Positions 26,770-28,090 of a stretch of 53,172 bases of DNA are shown in pieces (within the stretch, counting starts at the first letter, position 1; every line of letters begins with the position of its first letter). The position numbers were made by a program, and so were the translations under genes. The notes beneath the pieces are model-generated. The model made no database searches and was not told where the DNA came from. It worked only from the letters and a program-made list of their open reading frames with translations. Location: contig JAJYLC010000004.1 of NCBI GenBank assembly GCA_021787935.1, positions 1 to 53,172 on the forward strand, written 5' to 3'. The stretch comes from Chloroflexota bacterium (GTDB taxonomy: Bacteria > Chloroflexota > Dehalococcoidia > SZUA-161).

Positions 26770-27684
26770 TTAATACGTGATGACGGGCTTGTCTTTGGTA
26801 ATGACCCGCTTCTCCGTCGCTATTTGCTGGCGGAGATACTTGGGTAAAGAGAATATCCCCGGGTGAGCCAGCCCATCGTAAAATCTGAGTTTTCCCCTGA
26901 CCCGGCTCGCTATCCTGCGGTCTATTTCCTCGGGAGAAAGCTGGCAAGGGTCTAAAGCCTGCGAAGCTGCAGCGAAACCCCAGGGACCGCCGAAGGAAGG
27001 AATCTCGGCCTGATAAGGGGCGACCACAGAGAACACCGCCTTCAAAGTATTCACCACCGCCAGAAATGTGGACGGAAACATCACGCTGGTCGCGCCGGCC
27101 TGGAGCGACATAATGCCGCCCTTCTTCAGCTTCTTGCTGAGGTCCTGATAAAACTCTTTGCTGAAGAGCAGTAAAGCAGGCCCCTCTTCGAGCGGCTCGG
27201 TGAGATCGAGTATCATAACATCGAATTTTTCCTTGGTCTCAGCAATGTATTTCAAGGCATCTGTGTAAATAAGCTCGAGACGGCTGTCGTCGAAGGCTCC
27301 CTGGCTCAACGAGGGCAGATATTTCTGGCATATCTGCGGCACCTTCCTGTCTATATCTACCATAACCACCCTTTTCATCGTCTTGTGCGCCAGCACCTCT
27401 CTCAAAGTAGCGCCCTCGCCACCGCCGGCGATGAAAACTGTCTCAGGCTTGGGGTGGGTAATCATGGGAGGATGAACCAGGGCTTCATGATAGATAAACT
27501 CGTCAGACTCGCTGCACTGAATCTTGCCGTCGAGGATAAGGCATCTGCCGAAGGCAAGGCTATCGATTACCTGAATGGACTGGTATTTAGATTTCCCCAC
27601 ATAAGGCATTGCGCTCACGCTGAATGTCTGGATTAGGTCGGGACTAACGCAATCCCAGAACCAATTGATAGCCTTCTCTGCCAT
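26770..27684 (-). CDS. speE: Spermidine synthase-like aminopropyltransferase
   Basis: SpeE transfers an aminopropyl group from decarboxylated SAM to putrescine or related amines. The 304-aa protein has the N-terminal beta domain, then VFIAGGGEGATLREVL (dcSAM binding, about 89-104), VMVDIDRKV, YTDALKYI and the catalytic-loop VMILDLTEP. The canonical D-x-x-D-P loop is changed to DLTEP, as in some thermospermine- or agmatine-type enzymes, so the acceptor is uncertain. It begins three bases after the speH stop codon, in a two-gene unit. The dcSAM supply is questionable because the linked SpeH lacks key residues. Confidence 0.88.
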   Translation of the reverse strand: MAEKAINWFWDCVSPDLIQTFSVSAMPYVGKSKYQSIQVIDSLAFGRCLILDGKIQCSESDEFIYHEALVHPPMITHPKPETVFIAGGGEGATLREVLAHKTMKRVVMVDIDRKVPQICQKYLPSLSQGAFDDSRLELIYTDALKYIAETKEKFDVMILDLTEPLEEGPALLLFSKEFYQDLSKKLKKGGIMSLQAGATSVMFPSTFLAVVNTLKAVFSVVAPYQAEIPSFGGPWGFAAASQALDPCQLSPEEIDRRIASRVRGKLRFYDGLAHPGIFSLPKYLRQQIATEKRVITKDKPVITY

Positions 27685-27687
27685 ATG

Positions 27688-28032
27688 CTAGAACCCCCTT
27701 TTCAGTTCGACGATGGAGGGATTTTTGCTCTCCAGGCTCTCCATAATAAATCTGGCAGCCTCCTCCGGCTGGAATAGGTCTCCATAGGTGAAAACATCGA
27801 TTGCCGAGTAACCGTATTCCGGCCAGGTATGGATACAGAGATGAGCCCCGGTGATCAATACCACCCCGCTTATCCCCTGGGGCAGGAAGCGGTGGAAGGA
27901 CTCTCCGATCACTGCATTTCCGGCATCCTTGGCTACATTATGGAGAACGCCTTTTATGAAATCCAGATCATCGAGGAGGTCCTTGTTGCACTCCTTCAAA
28001 TCCAGAAGGAAATGTTTCCCCATCGTCCGCAT
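27688..28032 (-). CDS. speH: SpeH/SpeD-type S-adenosylmethionine decarboxylase homologue lacking the pyruvoyl serine
   Basis: Class 1B AdoMet decarboxylases self-cleave before a serine that becomes the pyruvoyl cofactor. This protein has FHRFLPQGISGVV and HLCIHTWPEYGYSAIDVF, almost identical to characterised enzymes. The cleavage motif E-S-H is G-A-H: alanine (GCT) replaces the serine that would be Ser63 in the Thermotoga enzyme, and Tyr replaces the catalytic Cys (FTYGD for FTCG). The His after the serine is retained. It should neither process nor decarboxylate in the known way. Start: a promoter -10 at 28062-28067 puts the transcript start near 28055, so ATG 28032 is preferred over the TTG at 28062. 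Confidence 0.85.
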   Translation of the reverse strand: MRTMGKHFLLDLKECNKDLLDDLDFIKGVLHNVAKDAGNAVIGESFHRFLPQGISGVVLITGAHLCIHTWPEYGYSAIDVFTYGDLFQPEEAARFIMESLESKNPSIVELKRGF

Positions 28033-28061: not shown

Positions 28062-28090
28062 ATTATATAGGATGTGGTCGCTTTTCTCAA
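28062..28090 (-). promoter_or_regulatory. Promoter of the speH-speE unit
   Basis: The minus strand reads TTGAGA (28085-28090), a 17-bp spacer and a perfect TATAAT (28062-28067). It lies directly upstream of speH and helps decide its start codon. Confidence 0.75.

Follow-up and report, generated by a model that had tools for sequence, protein, structure and literature searches.

In bacterial AdoMetDC, two half-sandwiches dimerise face to face; in eukaryotes two of them became fused, and the eukaryotic enzyme carries its pyruvoyl group in the N-terminal half only (PMC5201418; PMC10407285). The C-terminal half of this class 2 enzyme, itself without pyruvoyl, faces the pyruvoyl half and the two make one site. 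Similarly, in fusion proteins of Lentisphaerota (Victivallis vadensis) a degenerate C-terminal SpeD domain faces the pyruvoyl half (PMC10407285). The trypanosome prozyme is an allosteric partner of an AdoMetDC whose single chain already holds a complete active site (PMC5201418). In human spermine synthase, the N-terminal domain, a non-catalytic unit of AdoMetDC fold tied to an aminopropyltransferase, brings about dimerisation and is required for the enzyme to function (PMC3585406). Moreover, SpeD has given rise to an arginine decarboxylase, SpeDA, which is clustered with SpeY/SpeB (PMC10407285, Li et al. 2023). For the class 1b AdoMetDC of T. maritima (TM0655; structures 1TLU, 1VR7 and 3IWB, and 1TMI for the S63A mutant), processing requires Ser63, His68 and Cys83 (PMC10407285).

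Here, we analysed a window of 53,172 nucleotides (the whole stretch of DNA under study) that encodes SpeH', a catalytically dead SpeH/SpeD homologue with the same fold and the same partner-side residues as TM0655 and the same place before speE as the canonical SpeH of its class. Compared with class 1b AdoMetDC, SpeH' is without the pyruvoyl Ser, Glu62 and Cys83, and as a homodimer it cannot be a self-sufficient enzyme. Among the open-licence papers searched, none describes a bacterial SpeD that is dead, stands alone and is maintained by selection, and the Lentisphaerota fusions are the nearest case.

The speH'-speE locus and its relatives

The window belongs to a genome assembly of 2.68 Mb whose nearest named relatives are Dehalococcoidia (Chloroflexota) metagenome-assembled genomes (MAGs). 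SpeH' is read as a minus-strand frame that ends 3 bases before the start of speE, also on the minus strand (Table 1). The frame begins with ATG 28032 and runs on upstream to TTG 28062. A promoter-like site ends exactly at 28062, which makes a TTG start unlikely and argues for ATG 28032, the start taken here. In an earlier note on this DNA, made from the letters alone, the same site was called a strong promoter; it does match 11 of 12 consensus bases, but such sites are no commoner in the region than in shuffled sequences. No riboswitch was found upstream of SpeH' at gathering level, and there was no PADLOC match that would associate SpeH' with defence. Elsewhere in the window, a PyrR binding site RNA (RF00515) lies at 387-504 on the minus strand, with 58.6 bits, above the gathering score.

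Table 1. Coordinates of the SpeH' gene, its codons of interest and its surroundings in the window
Feature	Position	Strand	Basis
SpeH', catalytically dead SpeH/SpeD homologue, 114 aa	27688..28032	-	PF02675, TIGR03330, fold match to 1TMI
speE, aminopropyltransferase, GGGEG motif	26770..27684	-	co-directional, 3 bases downstream of SpeH'
Promoter-like site TTGAGA-17-TATAAT	28062..28090	-	upstream of ATG 28032; 11/12 consensus
Codon 49, Phe, retained partner-side residue (human Phe223)	27886..27888	-	16/16 orthologues
Codon 55, Ser, retained partner-side residue (human Ser229)	27868..27870	-	always Ser (16/16); mostly Thr in canonical SpeH of the class
Codon 62, GGG (Gly), in place of Glu62 of the cleaved Glu-Ser bond	27847..27849	-	alignment
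Codon 63, GCT (Ala), in place of pyruvoyl-forming Ser63	27844..27846	-	alignment to T. maritima AdoMetDC
Codon 68, His, retained partner-side residue (human His243)	27829..27831	-	16/16 orthologues
Codon 72, Glu, retained partner-side residue (human Glu247)	27817..27819	-	16/16 orthologues
Codon 83, TAT (Tyr), in place of catalytic Cys83	27784..27786	-	alignment

In profile searches SpeH' matched PF02675 at 8.9e-34 to 3.1e-34, and it reached 122.7 bits against NCBIfam TIGR03330 'adenosylmethionine decarboxylase' (cut-off 75.65), so that automatic annotation would label it an active enzyme. Its alignment with T. maritima AdoMetDC is gapless, and residue numbers are therefore common to both proteins. 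The best sequence match in the PDB is 1TMI, the crystallised non-processing S63A mutant of that enzyme, and the predicted fold (mean pLDDT 92.9) agrees with 1TMI at a TM-score of 0.92 and 1.2 A. Fold, sequence score and His68 are thus those of class 1b AdoMetDC, while Ser63 and Cys83 are missing, so that SpeH' is almost certainly not an active SpeH.

Of the 18 genomes of the order, 16 gave an orthologue of SpeH' next to speE, always with SpeH' on the 5' side. None came from G010 or G015; speE lies at a contig end in G010 (family f3). In family f1, Gly62 and Ala63 occur in all nine copies, and position 83 is Tyr in three and His in six. The seven copies of family f2 share Gly62; six have Ser63 and one has Ala63, and at position 83 six have His and one has Gln. 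Canonical SpeH proteins elsewhere in the class carry Glu-Ser and Cys. As a separate observation, one distant SpeD of the class (G038 C64, L149) has Lys-Ser-His in place of Glu-Ser-His at the cleavage site. By a pattern search of 393 class genomes, the Ala63 form was found only in the nine f1 genomes and one f2 genome, and viral contigs gave no match for phage copies with Ala63.

The 16 dead copies form a single clade (100/97), in which f1 and f2 are each supported and the Ala-bearing f2 member is nested within f2. This nesting indicates that Glu62 and Cys83 were lost first, and that Ser63 was lost at least twice. Since Tyr83 is restricted to the subclade of the window genome (G000), G001 and G004, and His is the commonest state at position 83 in the clade, Tyr83 most likely derives from His (CAT to TAT).

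The SpeH' lineage persists across two families, and its median dN/dS is 0.114 in f1 and 0.131 in f2; canonical SpeH of the class has 0.155 and f1 speE has 0.125. By these ratios, SpeH' is a functional protein under purifying selection. The missing catalytic residues might in themselves suggest a decaying pseudogene or a sequencing artefact, but this has next to no probability: the frames are intact in 16 genomes with dN/dS of 0.11-0.13, which rules out decay, and MAGs assembled independently from other genera show these residues too, with the Ala63 form across nine f1 genomes, which rules out sequencing error.

Residues lost and residues kept

The reference for conservation was a set of 22 positions at which 53 canonical SpeH proteins from the class agree to 95% or more. 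Within this set, changes at active-site positions in the dead copies are confined to Glu62 (16/16), Cys83 (16/16) and Ser63 (Ala in 10/16); A34, I60 and A76 are changed in part of the SpeH' clade only. Phe49, Pro51, Gly53, His64, His68, Thr69, Trp70, Pro71, Glu72, Asp79 and Phe81 are invariant in all copies, both Pro51 and Pro71 being kept. The earlier note had read Ala for the pyruvoyl Ser and Tyr for the catalytic Cys, and had proposed to align relatives at these two positions; both readings are borne out. Its statement that the rest of the active-site block is conserved is right for the partner-side residues and overlooked a third change, E62G. Its single-base codon steps are not the history of position 83, where Tyr most likely came from His.

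Human AdoMetDC has Glu67, Ser68 and Cys82 in its N-terminal half and Phe223, Ser229, His243 and Glu247 in its C-terminal half; the numbering of the human sequence is consistent at these positions, and F223, H243 and C82 are named in the literature. The human motifs F-x-P-x-G-x-S and I-H-x-x-P-E correspond to F49..S55 and H68..E72 of T. maritima AdoMetDC, with the same residues in the window protein. SpeH' has therefore lost its own pyruvoyl side and retained the residues that it would lend to a partner, and this division of losses and retentions along the two sides of a shared site suggests that two chains complement each other in one site. In the model predicted for SpeH', the strand order places positions 62, 63 and 83 at one end of the sheet and 49, 55, 68 and 72 at the other. 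In this model residues 63 and 68 lie in one strand (63-70), about 16 A apart, so that His68 would serve only the serine of a partner chain and not its own residue 63.

It is highly improbable that SpeH' is still a decarboxylase, either processed at another residue or active without pyruvoyl, because Glu62 and Cys83 are gone from every copy and Ala63 is the very state of the non-processing 1TMI mutant, although Ser63 is kept in 6 of 7 f2 copies. It is very unlikely that SpeH' binds AdoMet or a polyamine without decarboxylation, and regulates or catalyses something else. The retained fold and AdoMet-side residues and the persistence of the lineage across two families would suit such a sensor or new activity, in which Tyr or His at position 83 could have a role, but position 83 varies (His, Tyr, Gln) and no new invariant catalytic-looking residue is present; among sites that used to be conserved, Gly62 is the clearest case of a newly fixed state.

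The speE gene of the window keeps essentially all class-conserved residues, which indicates that decarboxylated AdoMet is still needed; loss of SpeE function is not supported. A SpeY/homospermidine route in place of SpeE is ruled out, as SpeY was found in 0 of 18 genomes of the order. In many relatives (L009, L020, L064 and other loci), the stop-to-stop frames of speH and speE overlap, suggesting a tight coupling of the pair. Throughout the class, SpeE has Glu in its GGG(D/E)G motif, a state linked mainly to thermospermine synthases (PMC11107197), and to judge from this motif the product of the class enzyme may not be plain spermidine.

The constant position 5' of speE, together with a match of the SpeH' model to the N-terminal domain of human spermine synthase (3C6K, E 9.8e-7), raises the alternative that SpeH' belongs to the aminopropyltransferase next door as a subunit, required for oligomer formation or for the handling of decarboxylated AdoMet. 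We regard this as quite unlikely. The same gene order occurs with active SpeH, so the linkage is inherited; Phe49, Ser55, His68 and Glu72 would not stay conserved for a structural role; and the enzyme that decarboxylates AdoMet would be left unexplained. Human spermine synthase has lost the corresponding His and Glu. Its N-terminal domain resembles SpeH' as a non-catalytic unit tied to an aminopropyltransferase and differs from it in being fused, in the loss of the active-site residues and in its dimerisation role.

A second SpeD homologue as the candidate partner

The earlier note allowed that SpeH' might be the only SpeD homologue of its genome, which proved wrong: a PF02675 search of the window genome gave exactly one other gene, SpeD2 (G000:C151:54104-54499), in which Glu, Ser, His and Cys are kept. 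The SpeD2 and SpeH' genes are not adjacent. SpeD2 is present in 14 of 16 genomes with SpeH', the window genome included, versus 6 of 19 with canonical SpeD/SpeH (Fisher 0.0016, kinship ignored). Its median dN/dS is 0.069 in f1 and 0.146 in f2.

In f1, SpeD2 lies directly upstream of the agmatinase gene speB, and its relatives in other Dehalococcoidia occur in genomes without speE and in SpeD2-SpeY-SpeB clusters. SpeD2 therefore has the SpeY/SpeB context of SpeDA; it is without the FxPxG motif of AdoMetDC (the adenine-side motif), and the residues for SpeDA processing (Ser63, His68 and Cys83) are present in 29 of 29 SpeD2 proteins. OKR-type decarboxylases (PF01276) were not found in the order, PdaD-type arginine decarboxylase (PF01862) was found in none of the f1 genomes and in the order only in G011, and the only PF02784 protein of the window genome is LysA (461.9 bits). 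SpeD2 is thus the only candidate source of agmatine in f1, where it stands beside speB with no other arginine decarboxylase found, and from this context it looks like an arginine decarboxylase of SpeDA type. If so, f1 would have no intact AdoMetDC of SpeD type left, though speE is intact. The source of decarboxylated SAM, which the earlier note had called unexplained, is therefore a real problem and a sharper one than was stated there.

Two further observations concern agmatine genes. The PdaD-type pyruvoyl arginine decarboxylase of G011 (C155:460-1920; L184, L204), an f2 genome, is an additional gene beside an agmatinase-family gene, and G022, a 2.4 Mb MAG of the same class, has twelve arginase/agmatinase-family matches, several of them in tandem on contigs C21 and C163.

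We lean towards an explanation in which SpeH' and SpeD2 pair into a heterodimeric AdoMetDC with one active site per dimer; here we infer the pairing, the activity and the substrate. SpeD2 would supply the self-cleaved pyruvoyl serine, the preceding Glu and the catalytic Cys, and SpeH' would supply the facing, AdoMet-binding half of the site with Phe49, Ser55, His68 and Glu72. A fuller scheme is put forward tentatively, at somewhat less than an even chance: in this split bacterial AdoMetDC, the heterodimer would decarboxylate AdoMet and, in f1, SpeD2 homodimers would in addition decarboxylate arginine and so supply the agmatinase encoded beside SpeD2, one pyruvoyl chain having two jobs set by its partner. 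In f2, the same pair would remain after an ornithine decarboxylase took over diamine synthesis, and SpeD2 would serve the AdoMet role only.

The sister family bears on this scheme. SpeD2 adjoins a PLP decarboxylase in five f2 genomes, and the one tested matched best lysine/ornithine and eukaryotic ornithine decarboxylases (227 bits, below the LysA cut-off). Agmatinase is absent from 6 of 7 f2 genomes with SpeH', several of which are incomplete. With this neighbour and agmatinase mostly absent, SpeD2 of f2 is not needed for agmatine. By the tree, f2 SpeD2 is orthologous to f1 SpeD2 (98/87). The KPxDW loop of the SpeD2 lineage is found in 0 of 6 f2 proteins versus 22 of 23 elsewhere, and Thr69 in 0 of 6 versus 23 of 23, whereas Glu62, Ser63 and Cys83 are kept in 29 of 29, f2 included. 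It appears from these sequences that, with the arginine role gone, the side of SpeD2 that would face another SpeD2 was relaxed and the pyruvoyl side was not. Relaxation on one side only matches the prediction of a heterodimer with SpeH'.

Several points weigh against the SpeH'/SpeD2 heterodimer. The two genes are apart in the genome. Among genomes with SpeH', SpeD2 is missing from G017, which is 53% complete, and from G008, a single-contig MAG estimated to be 70% complete that has dead SpeH and speE but neither SpeD2 nor agmatinase speB. At G008 C1:866000-876000 (L219), the holB-PSP1 neighbours of the SpeD2 locus are present and are followed by unrelated genes. Unless this assembly is faulty, SpeH' can persist in the absence of SpeD2, as would also suit a partnership with SpeE, and G008 is the strongest single point against the pairing. 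In addition, SpeD2 keeps Ser55, its own His68 and mostly Glu72, and might suffice alone. In that case SpeD2 would have a complete AdoMetDC site, or dual specificity for arginine and AdoMet, and SpeH' would only stabilise or activate it. Such allostery has a proven precedent in the prozyme of the same superfamily (PMC5201418), and the co-occurrence of the two genes fits it as well. We consider it unlikely, because it leaves the fixation of the partner-facing active-site residues in 16/16 SpeH' proteins unexplained, and because SpeD2 has no FxPxG motif and belongs to a lineage that resembles SpeDA.

Counterparts of SpeH' and their meaning

Like the trypanosome prozyme, SpeH' is a dead AdoMetDC paralogue under purifying selection, with an intact paralogue in the same genome (14 of 16 genomes). 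A prozyme-like pseudoenzyme that activates another decarboxylase was suggested in the earlier note; the conserved pseudoenzyme and the second SpeD homologue make a partnership plausible, and the part that changes is the mechanism, which is likely complementation and not allostery. A trypanosome prozyme proper is ruled out, since the prozyme is a class 2 single chain of two sheets without the active-site residues, whereas SpeH' is a bacterial class 1b half-sandwich of 114 aa that keeps one side of the site.

The FxPxGxS...IHxxPE residues of the C-terminal half of class 2 AdoMetDC are kept in SpeH', and by this analogy SpeH' is probably comparable to the silent half of that enzyme in the form of a separate gene. 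The halves of the eukaryotic and Lentisphaerota proteins are fused, whereas SpeH' is encoded separately and its proposed pyruvoyl half comes from a SpeDA-like lineage. SpeDA itself has been described as working alone, with no pseudoenzyme partner.

As databases call SpeH' an active AdoMetDC, annotation of the spermidine pathways throughout the order relies on a dead subunit. If SpeH' and SpeD2 do pair, a pseudoenzyme partner would set the substrate choice in an enzyme derived from a homodimer, and the SpeH'/SpeD2 pair would be a living, unfused model of a step toward the one-site eukaryotic AdoMetDC, with one catalytic and one silent half.
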